From assembly GCF_017985075.1 (NCBI RefSeq), contig NZ_JAGNYF010000012.1:1-48252 (forward strand): 48,252 bases of DNA. The letters run 5' to 3'. Positions 5,747 to 40,717 of this stretch are shown here, in pieces. Source of the DNA: Flavobacterium sp. (GTDB lineage: Bacteria > Bacteroidota > Bacteroidia > Flavobacteriales > Flavobacteriaceae). The notes under the pieces were generated by a model, which had not been told where the DNA came from, made no database searches, and saw nothing but the letters and a program-made list of their open reading frames with translations. The translations under genes and the position numbers were made by a program. Position 1 is the stretch's first letter; the number at the start of each line of letters is the position of its first letter.

Positions 5747-7300
5747 CTACAAATCAAACTTAATACCTTGCGCTAATGGCAATTGATCCGAATAGTTTAC
5801 GGTATTGGTTTGTCGTCTCATATACACTTTCCAAGCATCTGAACCTGATTCTCTTCCGCCACCCGTTTCTTTTTCACCACCAAAAGCACCACCAATTTCT
5901 GCACCAGAAGTTCCGATGTTTACATTTGCAATTCCACAGTCGGAACCCGCGAAAGATAAAAATTTCTCAGCTTCTTTCATACTGTTTGTCATAATGGCTG
6001 AAGATAATCCTTGTGCTACACCATTTTGTTTTTCGATCGCATTTTCCACTTCGCCTTCGTATTTCATTAGATATAAAATAGGAGCAAACGTTTCGTGTTG
6101 TACAATTTCAAAATGATTTTCAGCTTCAATGATAGCTGGTTTTACATAACATCCAGATTCGTATCCTTCACCTGATAAAACACCACCTTCTACTAATACT
6201 TTTCCGCCTTCAGCTTTAGCTTTTTCAATTGCTGCTAAATACGTGTTCACCGCATCTGTATCAATAAGCGGTCCTATATGATTTTTCTGATCTAACGGAT
6301 TTCCAATCGTTAATTGCCCGTAAGCACCCACAATGGCATCTCTTACTTTATCGTATACACTTTCGTGAATGATTAATCTTCTTGTTGAGGTACATCTTTG
6401 TCCAGCTGTTCCAACGGCTCCAAAAACGGCTCCTGGAACAACAACTTTTAAATCGGCAGTTGGAGTAATAATAATGGCATTGTTTCCACCTAATTCCAAT
6501 AAAGATTTACCGAAACGTTGTGCCACAGTAGTACCAACAATTCTTCCCATTCTGGTAGAACCCGTAGCAGAAATTAATGGAATTCTTACGTCTGTAGTCA
6601 TCATTTCGCCAACTTTGTAATCACCGTTAATGATACAAGAAATTCCTTCTGGTAACTGATTTGCTTTTAAAATGTCAGCAATAATATTTTGACAAGCGAT
6701 TGAACATAAAGGTGCTTTTTCCGAAGCTTTCCACACACAAACGTCACCGCAAATCCAAGCCAATGCCGTATTCCAAGCCCAAACCGCTACTGGGAAGTTA
6801 AATGCAGAAATAATTCCTACTACTCCAATAGAATGCCATTGTTCTCTCATTACGTGCCCAGGACGCTCAGACGGAATGGTTTGTCCGTTTAATTGTCGAG
6901 ATAAACCTACGGCGAAATCGCAAATGTCAATCATTTCTTGTACTTCACCATATCCTTCTTGTAAGGATTTCCCCATTTCATAGGAAACTAATTTTCCAAG
7001 AGGTTCTTTTAATTCTCTTAATTTATTTCCAAATTGTCTAACAATCTCACCACGTTGAGGTGCTGGCATTGCGCGAAACGATTTGAATGCAGCTGTAGCA
7101 CTTTGCATTACTTTTTCGTAATCTGCAGCTGTGGTTGTTTTAACTTTTCCAATTAATTGACCATCAACTGGCGAATAACTTTCAATTATTTCTCCAGATG
7201 AAAAACTGTTAGAACCCGTTGAGGTTCCGTCATTAATTTCTTTTATTCCAAGTGCTTTTAATGCTTCAGGCATTCCAAATTGTGAGGCTATTGTTGACAT
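5747..7300 (-). CDS. Aldehyde dehydrogenase, antiquitin (ALDH7)-like; probable piperideine-6-carboxylate / aminoadipate semialdehyde dehydrogenase
   Basis: NAD(P)-dependent aldehyde dehydrogenase, 517 residues, cytosolic. Catalytic residues are present: N168 in SAFNFP, E269 in LLELGG and nucleophile C303 in GQRCTS. The WNTALAWICGD and ELGGNNA segments and the GTAGQRCTSTRRL block are characteristic of the antiquitin branch, whose members oxidise 2-aminoadipate 6-semialdehyde in lysine catabolism (AmaB in bacteria). Substrate assignment comes from family resemblance only. It follows 3-hydroxyanthranilate dioxygenase on the same strand at 84 bases with a promoter-like TATATTTG between, so it is probably its own unit. 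It is not the aminomuconate semialdehyde dehydrogenase type expected after that dioxygenase. Confidence 0.88.
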   Translation of the reverse strand: MSTIASQFGMPEALKALGIKEINDGTSTGSNSFSSGEIIESYSPVDGQLIGKVKTTTAADYEKVMQSATAAFKSFRAMPAPQRGEIVRQFGNKLRELKEPLGKLVSYEMGKSLQEGYGEVQEMIDICDFAVGLSRQLNGQTIPSERPGHVMREQWHSIGVVGIISAFNFPVAVWAWNTALAWICGDVCVWKASEKAPLCSIACQNIIADILKANQLPEGISCIINGDYKVGEMMTTDVRIPLISATGSTRMGRIVGTTVAQRFGKSLLELGGNNAIIITPTADLKVVVPGAVFGAVGTAGQRCTSTRRLIIHESVYDKVRDAIVGAYGQLTIGNPLDQKNHIGPLIDTDAVNTYLAAIEKAKAEGGKVLVEGGVLSGEGYESGCYVKPAIIEAENHFEIVQHETFAPILYLMKYEGEVENAIEKQNGVAQGLSSAIMTNSMKEAEKFLSFAGSDCGIANVNIGTSGAEIGGAFGGEKETGGGRESGSDAWKVYMRRQTNTVNYSDQLPLAQGIKFDL

Positions 7301-7384: not shown

Positions 7385-7918
7385 TTATTTTACAAATTTT
7401 GGATTGCTTTCCATAACCGTTCCGCATTTTTCACACGTTCTTTTTTCTTCTGAAGCATAAAAATCAGTAAAATGTGTAAGGAAATCATTTTCAATATTAT
7501 TTAATTCAAAATATACTTCGTGAAGTTTGTGATTACACGAATCGCAAAACCAAAGCAATCCGTCTTTTACATCCAAATGATTTCGTTTTTTTTCAATTAC
7601 TAAACCAATAGAATTTTCTGTTCTGCTTGGCGAATGCGGTACTTTAGCAGGTAATAAAAACATATCTCCAGCAGAAAGATGCATTGCTTTTTTTTCGCCG
7701 TTTTCTTGAATATACACGGTAATATCACCTTCTAACTGATAAAATAATTCTTCGGTTTCGTTATAATGATAATCTTTTCTGGCATTAGGTCCAGCTACAA
7801 TCATAACAATATAATCGCCAGAATCTATATATAAATTTTTATTTGCAACTGGCGGAACAAGAAGATGTCTGTTTTCTTCTATCCATTTATTCAAGTTAAA
7901 AGGTTTTGCAATTGACAT
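7385..7918 (-). CDS. nbaC: 3-hydroxyanthranilate 3,4-dioxygenase
   Basis: Fe(II) cupin enzyme that opens the ring of 3-hydroxyanthranilate to 2-amino-3-carboxymuconate semialdehyde in the kynurenine route of tryptophan breakdown or quinolinate/NAD synthesis. It has 177 residues. The iron ligands are at the positions known for the bacterial enzyme: H51, E57 and H95, with substrate-binding arginines R47 and R99. The C-terminal rubredoxin-like metal site is intact: C125/C128 and C162/C165. No other kynurenine-pathway gene lies beside it. The predicted anthranilate-type cluster at 29229-40660 is separate. Start: ATG at 7918 gives the usual N-terminus (MSIAKPFNLNKWI). Confidence 0.96.
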   Translation of the reverse strand: MSIAKPFNLNKWIEENRHLLVPPVANKNLYIDSGDYIVMIVAGPNARKDYHYNETEELFYQLEGDITVYIQENGEKKAMHLSAGDMFLLPAKVPHSPSRTENSIGLVIEKKRNHLDVKDGLLWFCDSCNHKLHEVYFELNNIENDFLTHFTDFYASEEKRTCEKCGTVMESNPKFVK

Positions 7919-29051: not shown

Positions 29052-29089
29052 AAAAACCCAATTCTCATATTAGAATTGGGTTTTTTTTT
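29052..29089 (+). terminator. Terminator of the rimP-nusA-infB operon
   Basis: A 14-bp perfect stem (AAAAACCCAATTCT / AGAATTGGGTTTTT) with 6-base loop and extended T run begins 17 bases after the infB stop. Confidence 0.9.
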
Positions 29090-29228: not shown

Positions 29229-29831
29229 ATGCAATTCGATATCAAAAACACCGAATCTTCGGCTTTATATAAATTATTGACAGGAACTGTTATACCAAGA
29301 CCTATCGCTTGGGTAGCCACAATCGATGAAAATGGAATTGATAATTTGGCGCCGTTTTCCTTTTTTAATGTAGTGAGTGAAGATCCGCCGCACATTATGT
29401 TTTCAACGGTTCGAACGGGTAATAAAAATAAAGACACATTAAATAATATTCTCGGCAATCAGCAATTTGTAGTCAATTTAGTTACGGAAGATGTTGTAGA
29501 ACAAATGAATACTACCTCACAATCGGTTGCCGCTGATGTAAACGAATTTGAATTGGCAAACGTAACTCCAATAGAATCCATTTACATCAAACCAAAACGA
29601 GTAAAAGAAAGCTTGGTGCAATTTGAATGCGAAATGGTACATCATTATTTTATCGAAAAGCATCAAAATGGTGGCGCGTGTATTATCATTGGAAAAATTA
29701 TTACAATGCATATTGACGATTCAATTTTGATGGAAAATCATAAAATAAATTTAGAAAAATACAAACCTGTCGCAAGATTAGCAGGTTCAAATTACAGCAA
29801 ATTAGGAGAAATATTCTCTATTAAAAGATAA
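29229..29831 (+). CDS. Flavin reductase family protein (FMN-binding split barrel)
   Basis: A 200-residue cytosolic protein of the flavin reductase-like family. The FMN-binding pattern is visible: GTVIPRPIAWVATIDENG, NLAPFSFFNVVSEDPP, then FVVNLV. Family members bind FMN and either supply reduced flavin to a partner or act as small oxidoreductases. It is the first gene of the aromatic-acid cluster and lies 40 bases before the monooxygenase/OYE fusion. That fusion has its own FAD and FMN domains, so the reason for a separate flavin protein is unclear. Confidence 0.85.
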   Translation: MQFDIKNTESSALYKLLTGTVIPRPIAWVATIDENGIDNLAPFSFFNVVSEDPPHIMFSTVRTGNKNKDTLNNILGNQQFVVNLVTEDVVEQMNTTSQSVAADVNEFELANVTPIESIYIKPKRVKESLVQFECEMVHHYFIEKHQNGGACIIIGKIITMHIDDSILMENHKINLEKYKPVARLAGSNYSKLGEIFSIKR

Positions 29832-29870
29832 TTTAATTATCAATTACCCATTGTTAATTATCCATTAAAA
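29832..29870. repeat. Degenerate short-unit intergenic repeat (CAATTACCCATT / TTAATTATCCATT)
   Basis: Two near-copies of an AATTA(T/C)CCATT-type unit lie in the 40-base gap between the flavin reductase and the fusion enzyme. Confidence 0.4.
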
Positions 29871-29871
29871 T

Positions 29872-32163
29872 ATGAAAATAACAGTTATAGGTGGTGGTCC
29901 AGGCGGACTTTACTTTTCGATATTAACCAAAAAAGCAATGCCGCATTGCCAAATCGATATTTATGAACGCAATAAGCCCGATGATAGTTTTGGATTCGGA
30001 GTTGTGTTTTCAGATGAAACCTTGGGCGAATTTCTAAAACGCGATATGAAATCGTATGAATTAATTAGAAGTAAATTTGCCTATTGGGATGATATTATTA
30101 TAGCGAGAGATGGCGAATCCGTAACTATTGCAGGAAATGGTTTTTGCGGTTGTTCCAGAAAAACCCTTTTGCAATTATTGCAACAACGTTGTTTAGAAGA
30201 AGGTGTGAATTTGCATTTCGAACAAAATGTAGATGATTTAACACAATTTGCAGATTCCGATATTATTCTGGCAACTGATGGAATTGGAAGTGCCATTCGT
30301 ACACAATATCAAAAGGAATTTGGAACAAAAATTGAATTGAAAAAGAACCGCTTCGTTTGGTTAGGCTCCACAAAACCGTTAGATGCTTTTACATATTTTT
30401 TCAGAAGTACACCTCACGGAACCATCGTGGCACATTCGTATCAATATGAAGAAGGTATGAGTACTTGGATTTTTGAATGTAGCGATGAAACCTGGAAAAA
30501 ACACGGTTTTGAAGTAACCAATGAAGCCGATACGATGGCAAAAATTGCCGAAATCTTCAAAGATGAATTAGATGGCCACCCACTAATTTCAAATAAATCA
30601 CACTGGCGTCAGTTTCCGCATGTAACGAATGAAAATTGGTATTATAATAACATTGTTTTATTAGGTGATGCCAAAGCTACAGCCCATTATTCTATTGGTT
30701 CAGGAACAAAATTAGCTATGGATAGCGCTATTGGATTATCCGATGCGGTGATAGCTCATCCAACTAATGTTCAAGCCGCTTTTGTTCAATACGATAAAAC
30801 CCGAAGAAATACGGTTGAAATGATTCAGTATGCCGCCATTGTTTCATTAGATTGGTTTGAAAATATGGATCGTCATATGCAACATACATTTCAGCAATTT
30901 GCTTTTGGCTGCATGACACGTTCCAAAAAAGTAACGTATGAAAATTTACGCTTAAGAGATAGTTCATTTACAGATAAAGTTTTAAATGAATTTAACGATA
31001 ATTGTCATTCTGAACTTGTTTCAGAATCTCCTGCCTTTACGACTTTCAAATTAAGAAATTTAGAGTTACAAAACCGTATTGTAATGTCCTCTATGGGGCA
31101 ATATTTAGCAGAAAACGGATTGGTAAATGATTGGCATTTTCAGCATTATACATCAAGAGCCGTTGGTGGTTTAGGATTAATTCTGACCGAAATGACCGCT
31201 GTTTCTGATACAGGAAGAATTACTGAAGGATGCGCAGGTATTTATACTATAAACCAAGTAAACGCTTGGAAACGAATTACTGATTTTATTCACCAATATA
31301 CTCAAACCAAAATCGGAATTCAATTGGGACATTCTGGAAGAAAAGGCTGTTCAAAAATTCCTTGGGAAGAACAATTTCAAGGTAATAAATGGGAGTTGCT
31401 TTCGGCTTCTGCCTTTCCTTTTAATGAGAATTCTGATTGTCCAAAAGAAATGACTTTGGAAGATATGCAATTGGTTAAAAATCAATTTGTGCAAGCCGTA
31501 AAAAATGCTAACGAAGCTGGTTTTGATATGATTGAATTACAAGCACATCACGGGTTTTTATTGGCGACTTTTTTGTCACCGTTAACTAATATTCGCACCG
31601 ATGATTTTGGCGGAAGTGTTCAAAATCGTTTAAAATATCCCTTGGAAGTGTTTACTGCTATTCGTGAAGTATTTCCAAAAGAAAAGCCAATTTCTGTTCG
31701 AATATCCGCTACTGATTGGGCTGAAAACGGAATTTCAGAAACTGATGTTTTTGTTATTTCAGAAGCGTTTAAAAAAGCAGGTGCGGATATCATTAATGTA
31801 TCCACAGGAAATACGGTTGCTAACCAAAAACCACAAACCGGCAGAATGTGGCAAACGCCTTTCTCAGATGCAGTTCGGAATACGGTTCATATTCCAACAA
31901 TAACTGCCGGTTACATTCAAGATATTGACCAAATTAACACGATTATTTTAAACGGAAGAGCCGATTTAGTTGCTTTAGGAAGACCATTATTATTGGATGC
32001 TAATTTTGTACGAAATGCGCAAGCGTACGAACAATTTCGCGCAACAGATATTCCAAATTCCTATAAAATGGGCATTTCACATTTGTATCCATTAAAAGCT
32101 TCAGAGCGAAAACAAATGGAAGGCATGAAAAAAGCATTGAAACCGAAAAGTAATAAGAAGTAA
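29872..32163 (+). CDS. Bifunctional FAD monooxygenase / Old Yellow Enzyme fusion, anthraniloyl-CoA or salicylyl-CoA 5-hydroxylase type
   Basis: A 763-residue two-domain enzyme related to 2-aminobenzoyl-CoA monooxygenase/reductase and salicylyl-CoA 5-hydroxylase. Residues 1-375 are a group A FAD monooxygenase: the Rossmann motif GGGPGG (7-12) and the FAD motif with GDAKATAHYSIGSG around G265-D266. Residues 389-763 are an Old Yellow Enzyme barrel (KLRNLELQNRIVMSSMG, LGHSGRKG, FLSPLTNIRTDDFGGS, ALGRPLL). The known reaction hydroxylates C5 of the CoA-bound ring, and the second half then reduces the ring. Here the usual HxxH pair of OYE reads QAHH (Q557, H560), so reduction may be lost or changed. 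A palindromic repeat is translated in the linker at 378-386. The gene ends 6 bases before the CoA ligase. Confidence 0.9.
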   Translation: MKITVIGGGPGGLYFSILTKKAMPHCQIDIYERNKPDDSFGFGVVFSDETLGEFLKRDMKSYELIRSKFAYWDDIIIARDGESVTIAGNGFCGCSRKTLLQLLQQRCLEEGVNLHFEQNVDDLTQFADSDIILATDGIGSAIRTQYQKEFGTKIELKKNRFVWLGSTKPLDAFTYFFRSTPHGTIVAHSYQYEEGMSTWIFECSDETWKKHGFEVTNEADTMAKIAEIFKDELDGHPLISNKSHWRQFPHVTNENWYYNNIVLLGDAKATAHYSIGSGTKLAMDSAIGLSDAVIAHPTNVQAAFVQYDKTRRNTVEMIQYAAIVSLDWFENMDRHMQHTFQQFAFGCMTRSKKVTYENLRLRDSSFTDKVLNEFNDNCHSELVSESPAFTTFKLRNLELQNRIVMSSMGQYLAENGLVNDWHFQHYTSRAVGGLGLILTEMTAVSDTGRITEGCAGIYTINQVNAWKRITDFIHQYTQTKIGIQLGHSGRKGCSKIPWEEQFQGNKWELLSASAFPFNENSDCPKEMTLEDMQLVKNQFVQAVKNANEAGFDMIELQAHHGFLLATFLSPLTNIRTDDFGGSVQNRLKYPLEVFTAIREVFPKEKPISVRISATDWAENGISETDVFVISEAFKKAGADIINVSTGNTVANQKPQTGRMWQTPFSDAVRNTVHIPTITAGYIQDIDQINTIILNGRADLVALGRPLLLDANFVRNAQAYEQFRATDIPNSYKMGISHLYPLKASERKQMEGMKKALKPKSNKK
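31004..31030 (+). repeat. Palindromic repeat inside the coding sequence of the fusion enzyme
   Basis: Perfect 8-bp arms ATTCTGAA (31007-31014) and TTCAGAAT (31020-31027) flank a 5-base centre. In frame it encodes CHSELVSES, the kind of peptide produced when interspersed palindromic repeats are read as protein. It falls exactly between the two enzyme domains. Confidence 0.65.
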
Positions 32164-32169
32164 TAAATA

Positions 32170-33750
32170 ATGAAGGATAATTTTGCTCAAATAAATTTAC
32201 CTAAACTGGAATTACAACCAGAATATACCTTTTTGGATTTTCCACAATTCCAACATTCAGAAATGTTGAATTGCTTAGATAAACTATTAGATTCTCACAT
32301 CAAAGAAGGTCGAGGAAATGCAGTTTGCATAAGAACCTTTGAAGAAACCTGGACGTATCAAGATTTGTTTGAAAAAGCCAATCAAATTGCACATGTTTTA
32401 GTCGAAGATTTTGGTTTACAATCTGGAAACCGTGTCTTGTTGCGTTCGGCGAATAACCCAATGATGGTAGCTTGTTGGTTTGCAGTTTTAAAAGCAGGTG
32501 GAATAGTCGTAGCCACTATGCCCTTATTGCGTTCTAAAGAAATAACCACTATAATTGATTGTGCTGAAATTTCACACGCCTTTTGCGACAGCTATTTAGC
32601 TGAAGAAATGAATTTAGTCCAATCAAATTTTCTAAAAAAAGTGAGTTTCTACAGAAATTCCGATTTAGAAAAGCTAATGGAGTCTAAACCAAAAACATTC
32701 GACAATTATCCCTCAAAATCTGATGATGTGGCACTAATTGGCTTTACTTCTGGAACTACTGGTTTACCAAAAATGACGGCGCATTATCACAAAGATATTT
32801 TAAATATTTGCGAAGCGTTTCCAAACTATTCCTTACAACCTACTGAAAATGATATATTTATTGGAAGTCCGCCAATTGGTTTTACATTTGGTTTAGGCGG
32901 ATTGGTGTTGTTCCCGATGTATTTTGGAGCTTCTACTTTTTTAATTGAAAAACCAAGTCCTGATGTGTTGTTACAAGCCATTCAAGAGTATAAAATTACG
33001 ATTTGTTTTACTGCTCCAACCGCTTGGCGAGTGATTACCACCAAAATTCAAGACTACGATATTTCGAGTTTACGAAAATGTGTTTCGGCAGGTGAAACGT
33101 TACCTTTGAAAGTTTGGCAAGATTGGTTTGATGCCACAGGACTAAAAATTATTGATGGAATTGGTGCTACCGAAATGTTACATATTTTTATTTCATCCAA
33201 TGAAGAAAATATGAAACCAGGCGCTACTGGAAAAGCGATTTCAGGTTACGAAGCTAAAATTATTGACCAACAAGGCAACGAATTACCAAGAAATGAAGCT
33301 GGAAGATTAGCGGTTCGAGGAATTACAGGTTGTAAATATTTGAATCGAGAAGAAAAACAACGCGAATACGTTGAAAACGGCTGGAACATTACAGGTGATA
33401 TTTTCCGACAAGATGAAGAAGGGTATTTTCATTTTGTGGCACGTGGCGATGATATGATTATTTCTTCAGGCTATAATATTGCAGCAATTGAAGTAGAATC
33501 CGTACTTTTAACACATGAAGCTATTTTAGAATGTGCCGTTGTGGGTTTACCCGATGAAGAACGAGGGATGTTGGTTTGTGCGCATATTGTTTTAAAAGAA
33601 CAAGAAATGGCAGATGAAGCATTAAAAATTCAGATTCAAAATTGGTTTAAAATCACAGCAGCGCCGTATAAATATCCAAGAGTAATTAACTTTGTTACAA
33701 GTTTGCCAAAAACAGAAACAGGGAAAATTCAAAGATTTAAGTTAAAATAA
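32170..33750 (+). CDS. Aryl-CoA ligase (benzoate/2-aminobenzoate-CoA ligase family)
   Basis: A 526-residue cytosolic AMP-forming ligase expected to activate an aromatic acid with ATP and CoA. The P-loop motif FTSGTTGLPK is at 192-201, the core GIGATEMLHIF follows, TGDIFRQDEEGYFHFVARGDDMI contains the hinge (read as TGDIF and GRGDD-like ARGDDMI), and the catalytic Lys519 lies in PKTETGKIQR. Overall closest in feel to benzoate- and 2-aminobenzoate-CoA ligases. Position directly after the anthraniloyl/salicylyl-CoA hydroxylase fusion supports anthranilate or salicylate as substrate. The two cannot be separated by eye. Confidence 0.88.
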   Translation: MKDNFAQINLPKLELQPEYTFLDFPQFQHSEMLNCLDKLLDSHIKEGRGNAVCIRTFEETWTYQDLFEKANQIAHVLVEDFGLQSGNRVLLRSANNPMMVACWFAVLKAGGIVVATMPLLRSKEITTIIDCAEISHAFCDSYLAEEMNLVQSNFLKKVSFYRNSDLEKLMESKPKTFDNYPSKSDDVALIGFTSGTTGLPKMTAHYHKDILNICEAFPNYSLQPTENDIFIGSPPIGFTFGLGGLVLFPMYFGASTFLIEKPSPDVLLQAIQEYKITICFTAPTAWRVITTKIQDYDISSLRKCVSAGETLPLKVWQDWFDATGLKIIDGIGATEMLHIFISSNEENMKPGATGKAISGYEAKIIDQQGNELPRNEAGRLAVRGITGCKYLNREEKQREYVENGWNITGDIFRQDEEGYFHFVARGDDMIISSGYNIAAIEVESVLLTHEAILECAVVGLPDEERGMLVCAHIVLKEQEMADEALKIQIQNWFKITAAPYKYPRVINFVTSLPKTETGKIQRFKLK

Positions 33751-33791
33751 TTAGTACTAATTTTGTAATTAGTGTTTAAAATAACAGAAAT

Positions 33792-34211
33792 ATGCAATTT
33801 ATAAAACAAGAAAAAGTCCGTTTTCAACATATAGATTATGCCGGAATAGTTTTCTATCCGAGATTTTTAGAAATGCTCAACGGTTTAGTTGAAGATTGGT
33901 TTGAAGAAGCCTTAGACCGACCTTTTTCAAAAATGCACGAAACCAATGGTATTCCAACAGTTGATTTAAAAATTCAATTCAAAAACGCTGCACGTTTGGG
34001 CGAAATCTTAACTAAAAAACTTTGGGTAAAAGAGTTAAAAAACTCGTCTATTCTTTGTGGATTTGAGTTTGAAAACGAAAGCAATACTATAGTTTTAGAA
34101 GGTGAAGTTACCTTAGTAAATGTAGCTTTCAACCCAGAAAGAAACGGCATCAAAGCCGAACCTTTTTCAGAAGAAATGAAAGAGAAAATTAATAAATATT
34201 TAAATTCATAA
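33792..34211 (+). CDS. 4-hydroxybenzoyl-CoA thioesterase family protein
   Basis: A 139-residue hotdog-fold thioesterase. The N-terminal motif VRFQHIDYAGIVFYPRF holds the catalytic Asp15 of the 4HBT/YbgC class. The central helix (LNGLVEDWFEEAL) and the IQFKNAARLGE strand match the fold. In this cluster it most simply releases free 5-hydroxylated aromatic acid from its CoA ester, providing substrate for the bicupin dioxygenase. It sits 41 bases after the ligase and 54 before the nitrilase. Confidence 0.88.
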   Translation: MQFIKQEKVRFQHIDYAGIVFYPRFLEMLNGLVEDWFEEALDRPFSKMHETNGIPTVDLKIQFKNAARLGEILTKKLWVKELKNSSILCGFEFENESNTIVLEGEVTLVNVAFNPERNGIKAEPFSEEMKEKINKYLNS

Positions 34212-34258
34212 AGACTTAGCGAAACTCTGTGATAACTTAGTGAAACTTAGTGTAACAA
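34212..34258. repeat. Degenerate periodic intergenic repeat (CTTAGTGAAAC units)
   Basis: CTTAGCGAAAC, CTCTGTGATAA, CTTAGTGAAAC and CTTAGTGTAAC follow one another at 11- or 12-base spacing directly after the thioesterase stop. Confidence 0.55.
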
Positions 34259-34265
34259 CATAAAT

Positions 34266-35246
34266 ATGGAATTCAAAAAATTCAAAGCCGCAACCGTTCA
34301 AACCTCACCCGTATTTCTAAACGTAGAAAAAACAGTGGATAAAGCCATTTCTTTTATTAAAGAAGCGGCCTCAAACCAAGCAAAACTTATTGCTTTTCCC
34401 GAAGTATTTATTTCAGGATATCCCTATTGGAATTGGATTATGACGCCTGTTCAAGGAAGCAAGTGGTACGAAGAATTATATAAAAATTCGGTCGACATTT
34501 CTGGACCTGAAATCAAGAAATTATGCTTGGCTGCTAAAGAAAATGATATGCATATCGTGATGGGGATCAACGAACGAGGCAAAAGCTATGGCGAAATTTA
34601 CAATACCAATTTAATCATCGATAATAAGGGCGTTATCATCGGAAAACATAGAAAATTAGTGCCAACTTGGGCAGAAAAACTGACTTGGACTTCTGGTGAT
34701 GGTTCTTCGTTGAAAGTATATGATACTGAAATAGGACCTATCGGAACTTTGGCGTGTGGCGAAAACACCAATACTTTGGCACGTTTTACACTACTTTCGC
34801 AAGGTGAATTGATACATATTGCCAATTACATTTCGTTACCCGTTGCGCCACCAGATTATGATATGGCGGAAGCGATTAAAATTCGTGCTGCTGCGCATTC
34901 TTTTGAAGGAAAATTATTTACGATTGTGTCGTGTTCCACGGTTTCTCAAGAAATCAAAGACGCATTACGTGCCGATGTGCCAAATGTAGATGAATTATTA
35001 GATAGAAAAAGTTCGGCATTCTCTGGATTTATTGGACCTAACGGAGCTGTAATCGGTACACCATTAATTGATGAAGAAGGAATAGTATATGCTGAAATTG
35101 ACTTAGAAAAGTGCATTCAACCGAAACAAATGCACGATATTTTAGGACATTACAACCGATTTGATATTTTCGATTTACGAGTAAACACTGCTCCCACTCG
35201 AAATATTACATTTATTGATAATCACGAAGACTTTAATAAGAGATAA
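34266..35246 (+). CDS. Nitrilase-superfamily carbon-nitrogen hydrolase
   Basis: A 326-residue cytosolic enzyme with the complete Glu-Lys-Cys site: E46 in FPEVF, K130 in HRKLVPTW and C164 in LACGENTNT. The CGEN motif and the length place it near branch-1 nitrilases, though superfamily members also hydrolyse amides. In this cluster a C-N hydrolase makes sense if the ring substrate carries nitrogen: gentisate-type cleavage of 5-hydroxyanthranilate would leave an amide needing hydrolysis. Alternatively it makes the aromatic acid from a nitrile. It is followed after 3 bases by a lipoprotein gene. Confidence 0.88.
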   Translation: MEFKKFKAATVQTSPVFLNVEKTVDKAISFIKEAASNQAKLIAFPEVFISGYPYWNWIMTPVQGSKWYEELYKNSVDISGPEIKKLCLAAKENDMHIVMGINERGKSYGEIYNTNLIIDNKGVIIGKHRKLVPTWAEKLTWTSGDGSSLKVYDTEIGPIGTLACGENTNTLARFTLLSQGELIHIANYISLPVAPPDYDMAEAIKIRAAAHSFEGKLFTIVSCSTVSQEIKDALRADVPNVDELLDRKSSAFSGFIGPNGAVIGTPLIDEEGIVYAEIDLEKCIQPKQMHDILGHYNRFDIFDLRVNTAPTRNITFIDNHEDFNKR

Positions 35247-35249
35247 AAA

Positions 35250-36500
35250 ATGAAAAAAATAATCATATTTTTATTTTCGTTGCTGCTATATTCTTGTGCT
35301 AAGAAAGAAAAAATACATTCTTCTGAATTTCTTTTAGCTCAAAAGGAACTTACAAAACAATTGACAAAAATTAGTAAGCAAACTGACTTTAATGGTTTTG
35401 GAGTAGCGATTGTAAATGAAAATGAAGTGTTATATCAAAATGGCTTTGGATTAGCTAATTTGGAACCCAAGCAAAAATATGACGAAAATACAGTTCAAAA
35501 TATTGCATCTGTATCGAAAACATTTATTGGTATTGCCATACTTAAGGCACAAGAATTAGGAAAATTGCAATTGGATGACCCAATTAACAAATACCTTTCT
35601 TTCAAAGTCACCAATCCATATTATCCCAATATTCCAATTACCATTAGACAATTAACCACACATACATCTTCAATAAATGATAATGAAGTTTATATGAAAA
35701 AAACAATCGTATTAAACGACACTATTAATCTTAAACAAAATCTTGATATTGATATTTTACCAACAAAGTTTAATCCACCGTCTGCTAAAATATCTATAGA
35801 AGCATTTTTGCAAAACACATTGGATAATAGAGGTAAATGGTATTTTAAAAATGTATTTCTGAACAAAAAACCTGGTGAAATTTACAACTATTCTAACATT
35901 GGAGCAACGCTTGCAGCTTTAGTCTTAGAAAAAGCAACTGGGATTTCTTATGATAAATTCACAACAGAACATATATTAAAACCTCTTCAAATGAATTCGT
36001 CTGGATGGAGCTTTGATTCGGTTAATTTTTCGAAATGCACAAACACCTTTCAAGATAAAAGTACACCCTATCCATTTTATTCCTTAAATACCTATCCTGA
36101 TGGAGGTATGCTAACAACTTCCAAAGATATGGGGAATTATATTAGTGAGCTTTTGAAGGGGTTTTTAGGAAAAGGTACCTTATTGAATAAAGAAAGTTAT
36201 CAAGAATATTTTAGACCTCAACTTCAAGCTAAAAACTTCATAGATAGAGATACAAGTGAATATGGAGATTATAATATTGGAATTACAATGACTATGTTTC
36301 CATCGGGTAATTTTGGGCATTTTGGAGGAGATCCTGGACTTTTTTCCGTTATTCAATTTGATAAAAAGAAAAAAACAGCCAGATATTATATTATAAATAC
36401 CAATCCAAGTGGACCAGAAACAAATAAATATCACAAGCAAATTAATGATGCTTTAGATATATATACAGAAAAACTAAACACATTAAGCAAATTAGAATAG
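35250..36500 (+). CDS. Serine hydrolase of the class C beta-lactamase family, lipoprotein
   Basis: A 416-residue predicted envelope lipoprotein (MKKIIIFLFSLLLYS then Cys16). The penicillin-binding fold motifs are present: SVSK (S87, K90), YSN (214-216) and HFGG (357-360, in the place of KTG). This group includes D-aminopeptidases, esterases and DD-peptidases, and the substrate cannot be told. It starts 3 bases after the nitrilase stop and lies inside the catabolic cluster, although an exported peptidase/esterase has no obvious pathway role. It looks like a passenger gene. Codon use seems more AT-rich than in the flanking catabolic genes. Confidence 0.88.
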   Translation: MKKIIIFLFSLLLYSCAKKEKIHSSEFLLAQKELTKQLTKISKQTDFNGFGVAIVNENEVLYQNGFGLANLEPKQKYDENTVQNIASVSKTFIGIAILKAQELGKLQLDDPINKYLSFKVTNPYYPNIPITIRQLTTHTSSINDNEVYMKKTIVLNDTINLKQNLDIDILPTKFNPPSAKISIEAFLQNTLDNRGKWYFKNVFLNKKPGEIYNYSNIGATLAALVLEKATGISYDKFTTEHILKPLQMNSSGWSFDSVNFSKCTNTFQDKSTPYPFYSLNTYPDGGMLTTSKDMGNYISELLKGFLGKGTLLNKESYQEYFRPQLQAKNFIDRDTSEYGDYNIGITMTMFPSGNFGHFGGDPGLFSVIQFDKKKKTARYYIINTNPSGPETNKYHKQINDALDIYTEKLNTLSKLE

Positions 36501-36524
36501 TTATTACGATTTAAAATAAAAACT

Positions 36525-37640
36525 ATGGAAGAAAATAACTTTTCAGATGACCAAATCGGTCGTGCAAGAGTACAAGATTCACCCGAATTAGTTGCCTATT
36601 ATAAAGAACTTGAAGCTTTAGGCGCAGGCGCTTTATGGACAGTAGCCAATGACATCGAACCTTGGGAACCGCGTTCGTCATCTGTTCCAATGCTATGGAA
36701 ATATGATGATTTACGTGATTTAGTTTTAAAATCATCCGAATTAGTTACACCAGAACAAGCAGGTCGTCGTGTGGTTTATTTGGTAAACGACAAACGTAAA
36801 GATGTATCAGCAGCTGTCGGTTGGTTGTACACTGGAATTCAAGTTACGCGTCCAGGAGAAAGTACTTCGGCTCACCGTCATAAGGCATCGGCATTGCGAT
36901 TTATTATGGAAGGTGAAAAAGGCTATACCGTTGTGGATGGTAATAAAATTATGCTTGAAGTGAATGATTTTGTTATTACACCTAATTCCACTTGGCACGA
37001 ACACGGCGTGGAAGAGGGCGGAAAAACCTGTATTTGGCAAGATGGTTTGGATATTCCGTTGGTCAATGCTTTGGAAGCTAATGACTATGCGGTGTATGAT
37101 GGCAAGCAGCCTTTAGTAAAACCGCTGAATTATTCACCAATAATGTATGGCTGCGCTGGATTAATTCCAGCTGACAAAACTTGGGACAAGCCGTATTCAC
37201 CATTATTCAAATATTCCTGGAAAAACGTGTATCCAGCACTTTTAGAAGCTCAAAAAGTCAATGAAATCAATTCATTTGATGGAATTTTTATGCAATATTC
37301 CAATTCGTTAACAGGCGGACATGTGATGCAAACTATGGGTGCGGCAATGCAATTATTACCGGCAGGTTTCAAGGGAAAAGCACACAAGCATACAGGTTCG
37401 TTCGTATATCAATGTGCGAAAGGAAAAGGTTTTTCCATCATCAACGGACAACGTTTCGATTGGAAAGAAAGAGATATTTTCTGTGTTCCGAGTTGGGCTT
37501 GGCACGAACACCACAATTTATCCGAAACCGAAGACGCTTGCCTATTTCAATTCAACGATTTACCAGTAATTGAAAGTTTAGGGCTTTTTCAATCAAGAGA
37601 ATTGGAAGAAAATAATGGACATCAAATAACCCTAAAATAA
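36525..37640 (+). CDS. Gentisate 1,2-dioxygenase-like bicupin
   Basis: A 371-residue cytosolic Fe(II) dioxygenase of the gentisate/1-hydroxy-2-naphthoate/5-nitrosalicylate group. Both cupins keep metal-binding residues: H117, H119 and H158 or H160 in the first (SAHRHKASALRF ... TWHEH), and H287, H289 and H327 or H329 in the second (AHKHTGSF ... AWHEHH). Such enzymes cleave between the carboxyl-bearing carbon and the adjacent OH- or NH2-bearing carbon. With gentisate the product is maleylpyruvate; with 5-hydroxyanthranilate it would be the corresponding monoamide. It forms the ring-cleavage step of the cluster. Confidence 0.88.
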   Translation: MEENNFSDDQIGRARVQDSPELVAYYKELEALGAGALWTVANDIEPWEPRSSSVPMLWKYDDLRDLVLKSSELVTPEQAGRRVVYLVNDKRKDVSAAVGWLYTGIQVTRPGESTSAHRHKASALRFIMEGEKGYTVVDGNKIMLEVNDFVITPNSTWHEHGVEEGGKTCIWQDGLDIPLVNALEANDYAVYDGKQPLVKPLNYSPIMYGCAGLIPADKTWDKPYSPLFKYSWKNVYPALLEAQKVNEINSFDGIFMQYSNSLTGGHVMQTMGAAMQLLPAGFKGKAHKHTGSFVYQCAKGKGFSIINGQRFDWKERDIFCVPSWAWHEHHNLSETEDACLFQFNDLPVIESLGLFQSRELEENNGHQITLK

Positions 37641-37664
37641 AAACAAATAAAATAGAATTGAAAT

Positions 37665-38840
37665 ATGAAACATTTACTAGTCTTAGTTCTTTTATTAATT
37701 AATTCTTTAATTTTTGGTCAAGTTAATTTTAATCAAGGCAGCATAAACCTTAAAGAATATTATGAAGTTATTCCATATCAAACAGAAATAGGAAAAATAA
37801 TACTTCCTGTTACTATAAATAACAAAACATATCGATTTTTGTTAGATACTGGGGCACCTAATTTATTCTCTCCAGAATTATTGAAAGAATTAAATGTTAC
37901 TGAAGGTGATTCAATAAATGTAAATGATGCAAACAATCAAGATCAAAAAATGAAATTCGCCGTGGTTCCTCAACTAAAAATTGGTAACCTTAGTTTTGAA
38001 AATCAAGCAGGTTTAATTTATAATTTTGAAGAACATAATTTACTTAGTTGTTATAAAATTGATGGTTTTATAGGTAGTAATTTATTGAGAAATTCTATTA
38101 TTAAGATAAATGGTGCAAATAAAACTATTATTATCACCAATAAAATAAAATCATTAAATATTGATAAAAAACCAATTAAGATGAAATTAGATTGGAATCA
38201 AAAATCACCCTATGTAGAATTAAAATTTGTAGGTAAAAATAATGAAAAAGCTTCAGATATGGTTCTTGTGGATACCGGTATGGATGGTCTTTATGATATG
38301 TCAAAAAGAGCTTATTCGATTTTTGAAAAAAGTAAAATTTTTGAAGCATTATACTCTGCTACAGGTATTGGAGATTCGGGTCTTTTTGGTGCGGGTAATA
38401 GCAATGAACAAAAATTGCTTGAAATTGAAAACGCTAACTTAAACCAACAGATCATAAATAATATAATGGTTTCAACAACCTCAGATGATAACTCAAGAAT
38501 TGGATTAGATATTCTAAAATATGGAGATGTAACTTTAGATTTTTTAAATAAAAAATTCTATTTCGAATCTACCAAAATTATTGATGTAAAAGAAAAAACA
38601 CCGAAGTTTTATACTTCTGTACAAAATGACAAAGTAGTTATTGGTATAGTCTGGGATGAAAAGCTAAAAACATTAATGAATACAGGCGATGAAGTTATAA
38701 GTGTTGATAAAATGGATATTACTAATATTTCTCTTTGTGATTTTTTAAGACTTAAAAAAGATTGGAAGAATAAAGATAGTTATATTTTAAAAATAAAAAA
38801 TAAAGAAGGTCAAATCAGCGAAATTACTATTGAAAATTAA
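37665..38840 (+). CDS. Secreted retropepsin-like aspartyl protease
   Basis: A 391-residue secreted protein with signal peptide (MKHLLVLVLLLINSLIFGQ). Two half-repeats each carry the aspartyl protease motif: LLDTGAP (near 58-64) and LVDTGMD (near 200-206). The C-terminal 90 residues resemble a degenerate PDZ domain (TGDEVISVDKMDI). It may be a protease or a processing enzyme of the envelope; both catalytic Asp residues are present. Like the beta-lactamase-like lipoprotein, it interrupts the catabolic gene order without an evident role in it, and it is strikingly AT-rich. Confidence 0.85.
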   Translation: MKHLLVLVLLLINSLIFGQVNFNQGSINLKEYYEVIPYQTEIGKIILPVTINNKTYRFLLDTGAPNLFSPELLKELNVTEGDSINVNDANNQDQKMKFAVVPQLKIGNLSFENQAGLIYNFEEHNLLSCYKIDGFIGSNLLRNSIIKINGANKTIIITNKIKSLNIDKKPIKMKLDWNQKSPYVELKFVGKNNEKASDMVLVDTGMDGLYDMSKRAYSIFEKSKIFEALYSATGIGDSGLFGAGNSNEQKLLEIENANLNQQIINNIMVSTTSDDNSRIGLDILKYGDVTLDFLNKKFYFESTKIIDVKEKTPKFYTSVQNDKVVIGIVWDEKLKTLMNTGDEVISVDKMDITNISLCDFLRLKKDWKNKDSYILKIKNKEGQISEITIEN

Positions 38841-38850
38841 TAACTATAAA

Positions 38851-38886
38851 AAGCTTTGCTACTTTGTAACTTAGCAACTTTGAAAC
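38851..38886. repeat. Degenerate periodic intergenic repeat (CTTTGCTAC / CTTAGCAAC units)
   Basis: GCTTTGCTA, CTTTGTAAC, TTAGCAAC and TTTGAAAC recur at 8-10-base spacing in the 55-base gap upstream of the FAH-family gene. Confidence 0.5.
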
Positions 38887-38895
38887 ATAAAAAAT

Positions 38896-39804
38896 ATGAA
38901 ACTACTTACCTACAAAACACAAGACACAGCACCTCGTTTGGGCTTTATTCATAATAACCAAGTTGTTGATATGGAGGATTTTGGCGAAATTTCTAATTTT
39001 CCATTAGCTAACGATATGTTGGAATTAATTGATATGGGATTTGAAATTATTGCTGAAATAAGCGAACTAATTTCGGAAACACCAGAAAATTTCTTCGAAG
39101 AAATTGCTTATGAAATGAATGAAGTTACGGTTTTAGCGCCTATCGAAAAACCAAGAAAAAACATCATCGGAATTGGGTTAAATTACACCGAACACGTATC
39201 AGAAAGTGCCCGTGGATTAGATACAACTGGTAAATTACCAACAAAACCAATCATATTTTCCAAACCACCTACAACAGTAACGGCTACGAATACGGAAATT
39301 ATCAAAAACACAAAATTAACTTCTCAATTGGATTGGGAATGTGAATTGGCAGTTGTGATTGCTAAAAAAGGGAAATATGTTGCTAAAGAAGATGCAATGG
39401 ATTATGTTTTTGGTTACACCGTAATTAATGATATTTCAGCGCGTGATTGCCGTAGAGAAGGACAATGGATTGTATCTAAAGGTCAAGATACTTTTGCGCC
39501 TATGGGACCTTATTTAGTTACAAAAGACGAAATTGAAAATCCACATAATTTGAATTTATCGTTAAAAGTAAACGGAGTTGAAAAACAAAATTCGAATACC
39601 AAATTTATGCTTTTCAATATCAATGATTTAATTGAAGATTTGAGTATCGTGTTTACCTTAGAACCAGGCGACATAATAGCAACAGGCACACCAGCAGGCG
39701 TTGGCGCAGGTCGTGACCCACAAGAATGGATGCATAATGGTGATGTGGTAGAAGCCACAGTGGAAGGCATTGGAACAATTGTAAATACGGTTAAAGAGAT
39801 ATAA
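38896..39804 (+). CDS. Fumarylacetoacetate hydrolase (FAH) family protein, probable acylpyruvate hydrolase
   Basis: A 302-residue cytosolic hydrolase. The FAH fold signature is visible: IGIGLNYTEHVSE (89-103), the metal ligands E148 and E150 in WECELAVV and D179 in VINDISARD, KGQDTFAPMGP, and a GDIIATGTPAGVG turn. Family members hydrolyse C-C bonds of acylpyruvates, including maleyl- and fumarylpyruvate. In this cluster it should split the ring-cleavage product to pyruvate plus maleate (or maleamate). No maleylpyruvate isomerase gene is present, so direct hydrolysis of the cis isomer is implied, which fits the maleate isomerase gene next to it. Confidence 0.9.
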   Translation: MKLLTYKTQDTAPRLGFIHNNQVVDMEDFGEISNFPLANDMLELIDMGFEIIAEISELISETPENFFEEIAYEMNEVTVLAPIEKPRKNIIGIGLNYTEHVSESARGLDTTGKLPTKPIIFSKPPTTVTATNTEIIKNTKLTSQLDWECELAVVIAKKGKYVAKEDAMDYVFGYTVINDISARDCRREGQWIVSKGQDTFAPMGPYLVTKDEIENPHNLNLSLKVNGVEKQNSNTKFMLFNINDLIEDLSIVFTLEPGDIIATGTPAGVGAGRDPQEWMHNGDVVEATVEGIGTIVNTVKEI

Positions 39805-39807
39805 AGT

Positions 39808-39896
39808 TATTACACAGAGTTCCACAGAGAAAAGCACAGAGTAACACAAAATTTTTTGTAAATCTTTGTGAAAACTTTGCGAATCTCTGCGAAACA
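39808..39896. repeat. Large degenerate inverted periodic repeat
   Basis: The left half carries CACAGAG three times (ACACAGAGTTCC, ACAGAGAAAAGC, ACAGAGTAACAC). The right half carries TTTGTGAAAAC, TTTGCGAATC and TCTGCGAAAC, roughly the reverse complement of the left. The block fills the 106-base gap between the FAH-family and maleate isomerase genes and could form a long imperfect hairpin in the mRNA. Confidence 0.6.
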
Positions 39897-39910
39897 AAAC
39901 AAATAATAAT

Positions 39911-40660
39911 ATGAAAAAATTTAGAATAGGACAAATAGTTCCATCCTCAAACGTAACGATGGAAACCGAAATACCAGCCATTTTTCGCTCACGTGAAACC
40001 ATTTTACCAGAGCGTTTTACGTTTCATAGCAGTAGAATGCGTATGAAAAAAGTCACCAAAGAAGAATTGGAAGCTATGGATGCGATGAGTTTGAAATGTG
40101 CTCAAGAATTGTCAGATGCTCACGTTGATGTGATGGGTTATGCCTGTTTGGTAGCGATTATGAGTATGGGACGCGGGTATCATTGTGTGTCGGAAGTAAA
40201 TTTACACCAAGAAACAATTGCTAATGATTTTCCAACACCTATTGTTACTTCAGCAGGTGCATTAATTAATGGACTGAAGGTTTTGGGTGCAAAACAAATT
40301 TCGATTATTACGCCGTATATGCGACCATTAACCGATATGGTAGTGGATTATATCGAAAATCAAGGTATCAAAGTAAAACAAAGTATTGCTTTAGAAATTC
40401 CAGATAATTTGGAAGTAGCGGCTCAAAACCCAATGAATTTATTGGAAATCTATAAACAATTAGATTTGACAGATGTAGATGTTTTAGTTGCTTCAGCTTG
40501 TGTGCAAATGCCATCGTTAGAAGCCATAGATTTAATTCAAGCCGAATGTGGAATTCCTGTTACTTCTGCAGCTGTTTGTACGACTTATGAAATGATGAAA
40601 AAAATTGGAATCGAAGCTAAATCCGCTATTGGTGGAGAATTATTGAGTGGGAAATATTAA
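39911..40660 (+). CDS. Maleate cis-trans isomerase (Asp/Glu racemase superfamily)
   Basis: A 249-residue cytosolic enzyme converting maleate to fumarate. The two catalytic cysteines of the family are present: C79 in MGYACLVAIM and C197 in VASACVQMPS. The N-terminal PSSNVTMETE segment (binding loop) is also typical. It ends the pathway predicted for this cluster, delivering fumarate to the TCA cycle. The same enzyme closes the nicotinate pathway (NicE), but no other nicotinate gene is seen. It is the last gene before the terminator at 40677. Confidence 0.93.
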   Translation: MKKFRIGQIVPSSNVTMETEIPAIFRSRETILPERFTFHSSRMRMKKVTKEELEAMDAMSLKCAQELSDAHVDVMGYACLVAIMSMGRGYHCVSEVNLHQETIANDFPTPIVTSAGALINGLKVLGAKQISIITPYMRPLTDMVVDYIENQGIKVKQSIALEIPDNLEVAAQNPMNLLEIYKQLDLTDVDVLVASACVQMPSLEAIDLIQAECGIPVTSAAVCTTYEMMKKIGIEAKSAIGGELLSGKY

Positions 40661-40676
40661 TCCAATTAACAGCATA

Positions 40677-40717
40677 AAAAAATGCGTTCTGAATATAAAT
40701 CAGGACGCATTTTGTTT
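40677..40717. terminator. Terminator at the end of the aromatic-acid cluster
   Basis: The stem AAAATGCGTTCTGA / TCAGGACGCATTTT (one G-T pair) has a 7-base loop with T-rich tail. It separates the cluster from the converging TonB receptor gene. Confidence 0.8.

Follow-up and report, generated by a model that had tools for sequence, protein, structure and literature searches.

The genes considered here are eight pathway-type genes lying between positions 29,229 and 40,660 of a 48,252-nucleotide stretch of DNA (the window) from Flavobacterium sp. (contig NZ_JAGNYF010000012.1; host assembly of 2.28 Mb in 112 contigs, 91% complete). Comparison with their relatives suggests that they probably form an operon for the aerobic degradation of anthranilate via 5-hydroxyanthranilate and ring cleavage by a bicupin dioxygenase, a route of which we infer every reaction from sequence comparison.

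The proposed route can be described as follows. The ligase would convert anthranilate into anthraniloyl-coenzyme A (CoA), which the flavin adenine dinucleotide (FAD) half of a monooxygenase/old yellow enzyme (OYE) fusion would hydroxylate at C5. In the classical fusions the reductase half removes the aromaticity of the ring, and the reduced product is an enamine. Here 5-hydroxyanthraniloyl-CoA would stay aromatic because the reductase half has lost the substrate-binding His and the proton-donor Tyr. The 4HBT thioesterase would then release 5-hydroxyanthranilate, and the bicupin would cleave it between C1 and C2. The product is expected to be maleamoylpyruvate, as cleavage would turn the amino-bearing carbon into a carboxamide. 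An FAH-family enzyme would split maleamoylpyruvate into maleamate and pyruvate, and the nitrilase-type enzyme would convert maleamate into maleate and ammonia, unless it acts ahead of the FAH enzyme. Finally, maleate isomerase would turn maleate into fumarate. The succession of CoA ligation, 5-hydroxylation, thioester release, gentisate-type cleavage, FAH-type hydrolysis and maleate isomerization had been put forward in the original prediction, and the comparative evidence given below favors it.

Two overlapping samples were compared. Bicupin loci in public genomes, taken with up to 10 kb on either side of the gene, were the best 80 of at least 579 by likeness to a Tistrella protein and are not a random sample; 14 plasmid loci were added. 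From all loci, 74 fusions were taken after dropping L001-L012, L019, L020, L035 and L143-L172 (duplicates or lone halves) and L067 (cut by the locus end). As L182 repeats L056 it was removed, leaving 73 distinct fusions, 26 (not 27) of them bicupin-linked; eight plasmid fusions without a bicupin were hand-picked for spread from 95 matching plasmid records. Loci were classed by matches within 9.5 kb at 38% identity or more: an enoyl-CoA hydratase match defines the beta-oxidation-linked class, and a bicupin without such a match the bicupin-linked class. Several of the beta-oxidation-linked rows are near-copies of each other (for example, those from Achromobacter).

The fusion is homologous over its full length to the classical 2-aminobenzoyl-CoA monooxygenase/reductase family, and it scores 970 bits with the NCBIfam family NF006101 (salicylyl-CoA 5-hydroxylase), under the curated cut-off of 1078. 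Substrate binding in OYE enzymes depends on a His/His pair, and the proton comes from a Tyr; in YqjM these residues are presumably His164, His167 and Tyr169. The alignment places Gln557, His560 and Phe562 of the window's protein at the classical His/His/Tyr sites, so that the intact reductase site of the 2-aminobenzoyl-CoA (abm) pathway is absent here. All three residues are kept in 33 of the 33 beta-oxidation-linked fusions. Among the bicupin-linked ones the triad is altered in 25 of 26, with Gln replacing the first His in 22 and the Tyr lost in 19. Altered sites also occur in five of six fusions that have isatin- or Ior-type neighbors and no bicupin nearby, and the site is intact in both monocupin-linked fusions and in five of six unclassified ones.

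A tree of 72 fusions (built by a quick method, the truncated L206 also being excluded) requires eight changes for the bicupin-linked label and six for the altered state. It provides five independent contrasts, of which a mean of 4.9 agreed with the trait and none opposed it over 200 random pairings; the median p of the sign test, 0.0625, is the lowest attainable with five contrasts. The divergence of the OYE half relative to the monooxygenase half has median ratios of 1.49, 1.61 and 2.31 in three bicupin- or isatin-type lineages (the last from three pairs) and lies between 0.88 and 1.03 in beta-oxidation-linked fusions. Among the columns that are invariant in beta-oxidation-linked fusions, 96.5% of those in the monooxygenase half are kept by the bicupin-linked ones, against 86.2% of those in the OYE half. 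According to the accessible text of PMC3534580, which cites earlier work, the classical enzyme gives 5-hydroxyanthraniloyl-CoA when reduced nicotinamide adenine dinucleotide is limiting.

Two further observations on fusions came from this comparison. The fusion of L071, a record with a flavobacterial name (Mesoflavibacter sp.), pairs in the tree with the fusion of Pacificispira (G410), and the title looks wrong. In Arthrobacter Rue61a (L115), Rhodococcus BG43 (L119) and Alloyangia (L117) the fusion is accompanied by a thioesterase, an FAH hydrolase and a small monocupin, and in Rue61a and BG43 also by a ligase; the OYE site is intact, and the arrangement is possibly another ring-cleaving solution.

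The gene content of the two classes bears on the fate of the nitrogen. A nitrilase gene is present in 24 of the 26 bicupin-linked loci (it is lacking in Cupriavidus L022 and L090) and in none of the 33 beta-oxidation-linked ones, whereas RidA is found in one and 27 of them, respectively. Acyl-CoA dehydrogenase (30/33) and SDR genes (33/33) accompany the beta-oxidation-linked fusions, and neither occurs in any bicupin-linked locus. The pairing of nitrilase and bicupin holds across phyla. Only a route in which the ring nitrogen persists until ring cleavage requires a maleamate-type amidase, and the exchange of RidA for a nitrilase fits nitrogen leaving as an amide after that step. A carboxamide is expected because the ring would be cleaved at the amino-bearing carbon, and for gentisate a nitrilase would have no evident use. 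The window's nitrilase has the Glu-Lys-Cys set E46, K130 and C164, which we take to be catalytic and which is invariant in ten sequences; its score with the Nit6803 subfamily is 233 bits, below the cut-off of 502.

Window-type nitrilase genes lie in 31 of the 80 bicupin loci. Maleate isomerase is present in 21 of the 80, all within these 31 and none among the other 49, an association that favors maleate as the product. A second type of nitrilase, which shares 32-33% identity with that of the window, is found in 23 of the 80 (among loci L035-L114), with a flavin reductase in 23/23 and maleate isomerase in 0/23; the lower pathway may have two endings, according to the nitrilase type. Conceivably, the second type and the flavin reductase make up a reductive branch.

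The proposed ring-cleaving enzyme itself matches TIGR02272 with 299 bits (the equivalog cut-off being 442) and PDB entry 3bu7 with 511 bits. Its HxH pairs H117/H119, H158/H160, H287/H289 and H327/H329, presumably ligands, are invariant in 12 sequences. The bicupin of Ruegeria pomeroyi (L024) is identical to 3bu7 over 374 residues, and its gene lies between nitrilase and FAH genes, near those for maleate isomerase, a thioesterase and IorAB. On one megaplasmid R. pomeroyi DSS-3 carries both this fusion-less bicupin-nitrilase-IorAB cluster and a separate classical fusion cluster near tryptophan dioxygenase (L118); the former may serve an already hydroxylated indole compound. Over the 80 bicupin loci, at 38% identity or more, FAH genes are found in 75, the fusion in 16 and IorA in 17, with no match to an enoyl-CoA hydratase of the beta-oxidation type in any. 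FAH genes accompany 26/26 bicupin-linked and 0/33 beta-oxidation-linked fusions, and flavin-reductase-like genes 20/26 and 0/33. The maleate isomerase matches PDB entry 4fq7, presumably from Pseudomonas putida, with 315 bits, and C79 and C197, which we take to be catalytic, are conserved in four sequences. Little weight is given to the thioesterase, because similar thioesterases occur in six of the 33 beta-oxidation-linked clusters as well.

The best PDB match of the window's ligase is an anthranilate-CoA ligase, 4wv3. The ligase is 47.6% identical to its counterpart next to the fusion of the Arthrobacter Rue61a plasmid (L115). From the gene order we take that counterpart to be ARUE_113p00220, a protein that was expressed and confirmed as an anthranilate-CoA ligase (PMC3534580, accessible text). 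Five further ligases from fusion clusters show 50-52% identity, and the range over all abm-type ones is 48-52%; identity drops to 27% and 23% for the ligases of the fusion-less bicupin loci of Tistrella and Sulfitobacter THAF37. Classical fusions are found near tryptophan 2,3-dioxygenase in R. pomeroyi and near kynureninase in Ensifer. The aryl acid had at first been left open; judged by ligase orthology, the conserved nitrilase and the tryptophan, kynurenine and isatin neighbors, the predicted substrate is best resolved as anthranilate rather than salicylate.

IorA is present in 12 of the 26 bicupin-linked fusion loci and a cyclase-family gene in eight; the solved relatives of the Caballeronia SBC1 cyclase (5nmp, 461 bits) mark it as an isatin hydrolase. 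In Cupriavidus sp. IDO, Glaciimonas and Pseudoduganella the fusion has an indole-monooxygenase-like gene in its vicinity. The iad auxin loci contain IorAB, and their route leads via isatin and isatinic acid to anthranilate, as described in the accessible part of PMC9613470. The isatin-type gene context of IorA, taken with the iad loci, suggests that proteobacterial IorAB would turn isatinate into anthraniloyl-CoA. Three loci, L180, L183 and L112 (Cupriavidus sp. IDO), have an indole/styrene-monooxygenase-like gene near a fusion with an altered OYE site, along with an isatin-hydrolase-like cyclase in the first two and IorAB and a bicupin in the third; they are candidate indole degradation clusters.

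Within the phylum the gene set is rare. The fusion (E <= 1e-80) was matched in 12 of 395 genomes: six matches are full-length and close (100% identity in the host genome, 72-85% in five others of the genus), five cover one half only, and one (G340) is full-length and distant, being 44% identical and lying beside SDR- and enoyl-CoA-hydratase-like genes of the beta-oxidation type. The bicupin (E <= 1e-60) was found in exactly the same six of the 395. An ortholog of the nitrilase (80-100% identity) is present in these same six of the 24 genomes of the genus, and the other 18 have no nitrilase match at E <= 1e-40. The eight genes occur in identical order in the host genome and the five others, where identity to the window's proteins is 81-95% for the bicupin and 80-88% for the nitrilase. 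The set looks like a unit that was gained or lost whole in the genus. The search for the same genes in other Bacteroidota, proposed in the original prediction, thus found them travelling together and in the same order in six of 395 genomes. The co-occurrence with kynureninase or tryptophan dioxygenase that had also been proposed as a check is uninformative, because nearly all genomes of the genus (23/24 for each enzyme) carry them regardless of the cluster; 3-hydroxyanthranilate dioxygenase is found in 22/24, again with or without it. Genes flanking two of the related clusters encode Por_Secre_tail domains, which are in keeping with Bacteroidota.

A number of observations weigh against the proposed route. 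The locus classes rest on gene neighborhood in a non-random sample. One bicupin-linked fusion, L069, keeps His/His/Tyr and is also the sole RidA carrier among the 26, and the Tyr is kept in six more. In the window's own lineage the OYE/monooxygenase divergence ratio is 0.99, with no relaxation seen; as the OYE half is not evolving faster there, it may keep some function. For 50 of the 80 bicupin loci the genome was searched for the fusion, which is present somewhere in 39; among the 40 fusion regions then fetched, 27 are beta-oxidation-linked and intact, two bicupin-linked, five of the isatin/Ior type and six unclassified. As many bicupin genomes hold intact beta-oxidation-linked fusions, the bicupin module would be fed otherwise there. 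The best PDB matches of the nitrilase are true nitrilases, and this kinship makes the amidase role a guess. Neither nitrilase type is within reach in 26 of the 80 bicupin loci (some of them short), and a window-type nitrilase was found elsewhere in the genome for only one of these 26. Structure 3bu7, a relative of the bicupin, is deposited as a gentisate 1,2-dioxygenase. No ligase match of 38% identity or more was found in the 20 bicupin-linked fusion loci outside the genus, so that the complete window-like set is seen only in this genus; distant matches outside it are limited to L081 and L089 (30-33% identity). Finally, the available text of PMC3534580 reports no growth of Rue61a on 5-hydroxyanthranilate; that strain has a different cluster.

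It is unlikely that the operon degrades salicylate, by means of a salicylyl-CoA ligase and 5-hydroxylase, a thioesterase, gentisate 1,2-dioxygenase, maleylpyruvate hydrolase and maleate isomerase. The family name of the fusion and the placement of the bicupin in the gentisate dioxygenase family agree with such a route, whose chemistry after CoA release is that of the textbook gentisate route. Against it, the NF006101 score stays below the cut-off, the ligase is orthologous to those of anthranilate-type clusters, tryptophan, kynurenine and isatin genes neighbor related clusters, and a substrate lacking nitrogen would leave the nitrilase that is co-conserved with the bicupin without evident use. 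Rather more doubtful is a deamination of 5-hydroxyanthranilate to gentisate before ring cleavage, as drawn for Nocardia opaca, with the nitrilase-type enzyme acting elsewhere. The same order of intermediates has been proposed for that organism (Cain 1968, as cited in the accessible part of PMC4539516), and the deposited name of 3bu7 would suit it; no deaminase candidate was recognized among the families of the cluster, however, and RidA is nearly absent from bicupin-linked loci.

The cluster might instead feed the classical 2-aminobenzoyl-CoA pathway, with an active reductase and beta-oxidation genes elsewhere, while the bicupin, FAH enzyme and isomerase serve another substrate. The full-length homology of the fusion and the separate classical fusions often carried by bicupin genomes speak for this, and the beta-oxidation genes that the cluster lacks were not searched for elsewhere in the host genome. 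The altered OYE residues, the absence of acyl-CoA dehydrogenase and SDR matches from bicupin-linked loci and the confinement of fusion, bicupin and nitrilase to the same six genomes of the genus make it very unlikely. The least probable alternative is the degradation of a nitrile- or amide-bearing aromatic on which the nitrilase acts first, as a true nitrilase. Its Glu-Lys-Cys set and its solved relatives would allow this, but the nitrilase accompanies the bicupin and FAH genes whether a ligase, IorAB or neither is present, and the second, dissimilar nitrilase takes its place in the 23 loci mentioned above.

Anthranilate degradation via 5-hydroxyanthranilate may even extend well beyond the window. 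It is conceivable, although somewhat doubtful, that there is a widespread route in which the classical fusion lost its reductase function in about five lineages and came to work with a 5-hydroxyanthranilate 1,2-dioxygenase, an FAH-type hydrolase and a maleamate-type amidase of the nitrilase superfamily. In its proteobacterial versions, isatin hydrolase and IorAB would supply anthraniloyl-CoA straight from isatinate. Such a loss of one catalytic half, recurring together with the same exchange of partner genes, would then represent convergent pathway rewiring, and 3bu7 would, by its gene neighbors, be a 5-hydroxyanthranilate dioxygenase. The name salicylyl-CoA 5-hydroxylase, and possibly also that of 3bu7, would be worth revisiting. 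Reports of a gentisate branch in anthranilate and indole degradation go back to 1968 but name no genes, and the operon and its relatives offer a testable gene set for this branch.

The features of the region are listed in the table. The eight genes are intact, the families named for them at the outset are borne out by profile and family matches, and no beta-oxidation gene is found among the ten plus-strand open reading frames (ORFs) of the operon, as had been noted. The genes are not consecutive as first described, since two further ORFs interrupt the series. These two have no tblastn match (E 1e-5) in the five related clusters, some of which contain other ORFs at other places. Weak partial matches to the beta-lactamase/penicillin-binding protein (PBP)-like ORF (23-36% identity) occur near the bicupin in six proteobacterial loci (L064, L066, L068, L074, L083 and L097); these may be due to chance or may reflect a serine hydrolase recurring in such clusters. 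The operon is flanked by two terminator-like hairpins, the upstream one just after infB. The whole window has 11 terminator-like sites against 7.6 expected, and promoter-like matches are not enriched in it (48 found, 55.6 expected).

Table. Features of the proposed anthranilate operon and its borders (window coordinates).
Feature	Position	Strand	Remarks
Bidirectional terminator-like hairpin after infB	29052..29085	.	14-pair stem, T tails on both strands; consensus match only
Flavin-reductase-like protein, PF01613	29229..29831	+	61-73% identity in 5 related clusters
FAD monooxygenase/OYE fusion, 763 aa; proposed anthraniloyl-CoA 5-hydroxylase	29872..32163	+	NF006101-like; Q557, H560, F562
AMP-forming aryl-CoA ligase; proposed anthranilate-CoA ligase	32170..33750	+	best PDB match 4wv3
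4HBT-type thioesterase (4HBT_2); proposed 5-hydroxyanthranilate release	33792..34211	+	family match
Nitrilase-superfamily C-N hydrolase (CN_hydrolase); proposed maleamate/maleamoylpyruvate amidohydrolase	34266..35246	+	E46, K130, C164
Beta-lactamase/PBP-like ORF, interleaved	35250..36500	+	family match
Bicupin ring-cleavage dioxygenase, gentisate-dioxygenase-like; proposed 5-hydroxyanthranilate 1,2-dioxygenase	36525..37640	+	family match
Aspartyl-protease-like ORF, interleaved	37665..38840	+	family match
FAH-family hydrolase (FAA_hydrolase); proposed maleamoylpyruvate (maleylpyruvate) hydrolase	38896..39804	+	family match
Maleate cis-trans isomerase	39911..40660	+	C79 and C197 conserved
Terminator-like hairpin, operon end	40679..40713	+	14-pair stem, T tail; consensus match only

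About 21 kb away from the operon, on the minus strand, lies a gene for 3-hydroxyanthranilate 3,4-dioxygenase (7385-7918; NF009763, 266 bits, cut-off 220), which belongs to the standard kynurenine branch. It is adjoined on the same strand by an aldehyde dehydrogenase gene (5747-7300) that scores 813 bits against a cut-off of 730 for L-piperidine-6-carboxylate dehydrogenase.

The proposed system can be compared with several known ones. With the abm pathway of the Azoarcus evansii type it has the anthranilate-CoA ligase and the monooxygenase/OYE fusion in common; it differs in lacking enoyl-CoA hydratase, acyl-CoA dehydrogenase, SDR and RidA genes in the cluster, in the altered OYE site and in ring opening by a bicupin. 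The route from salicylyl-CoA to gentisate, of the Streptomyces sdg type, presumably combines CoA ligation, 5-hydroxylation and a gentisate-type dioxygenase in a similar way; the window differs in substrate, fusion architecture and the added nitrilase. The lower pathway of nicotinate and nicotine degradation proceeds from maleamate through maleate to fumarate by means of NicF/NicE and Iso. Its maleate isomerase is similar (4fq7), whereas the amidase proposed here belongs to the nitrilase superfamily, unlike the known maleamate amidase type.

The original prediction called the route possibly undescribed. This appears to hold for the gene set and the mechanism, not for the route itself, which had been proposed chemically before: degradation of anthranilate via 5-hydroxyanthranilate and gentisate goes back to Cain 1968 and to Claus and Kutzner 1983 (both as cited in the accessible parts of PMC4539516 and PMC6221969), and the two intermediates are described for Nocardia opaca in the former. 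For this gentisate branch the accessible part of PMC6221969 (2018) states that the enzyme is unreported and the functional gene not revealed, and no gene assignment for the present set was found in the open-access literature, subscription papers lying mostly outside the search. The branch, as described for N. opaca and Alcaligenes In3 in these same parts of the two papers, shares with the proposed route a 5-hydroxyanthranilate-type intermediate and gentisate-type cleavage; there the genes are unknown, whereas here CoA activation would come first and the nitrogen would be lost as an amide once the ring is open. The indole-3-acetate iad loci (PMC9613470, accessible part) share IorAB and isatin-type genes with the proteobacterial relatives, while in the window a ligase takes their place and the families found include no isatin genes. 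The operon can be regarded as a union of two known half-pathways that uses a modified form of a bifunctional enzyme.

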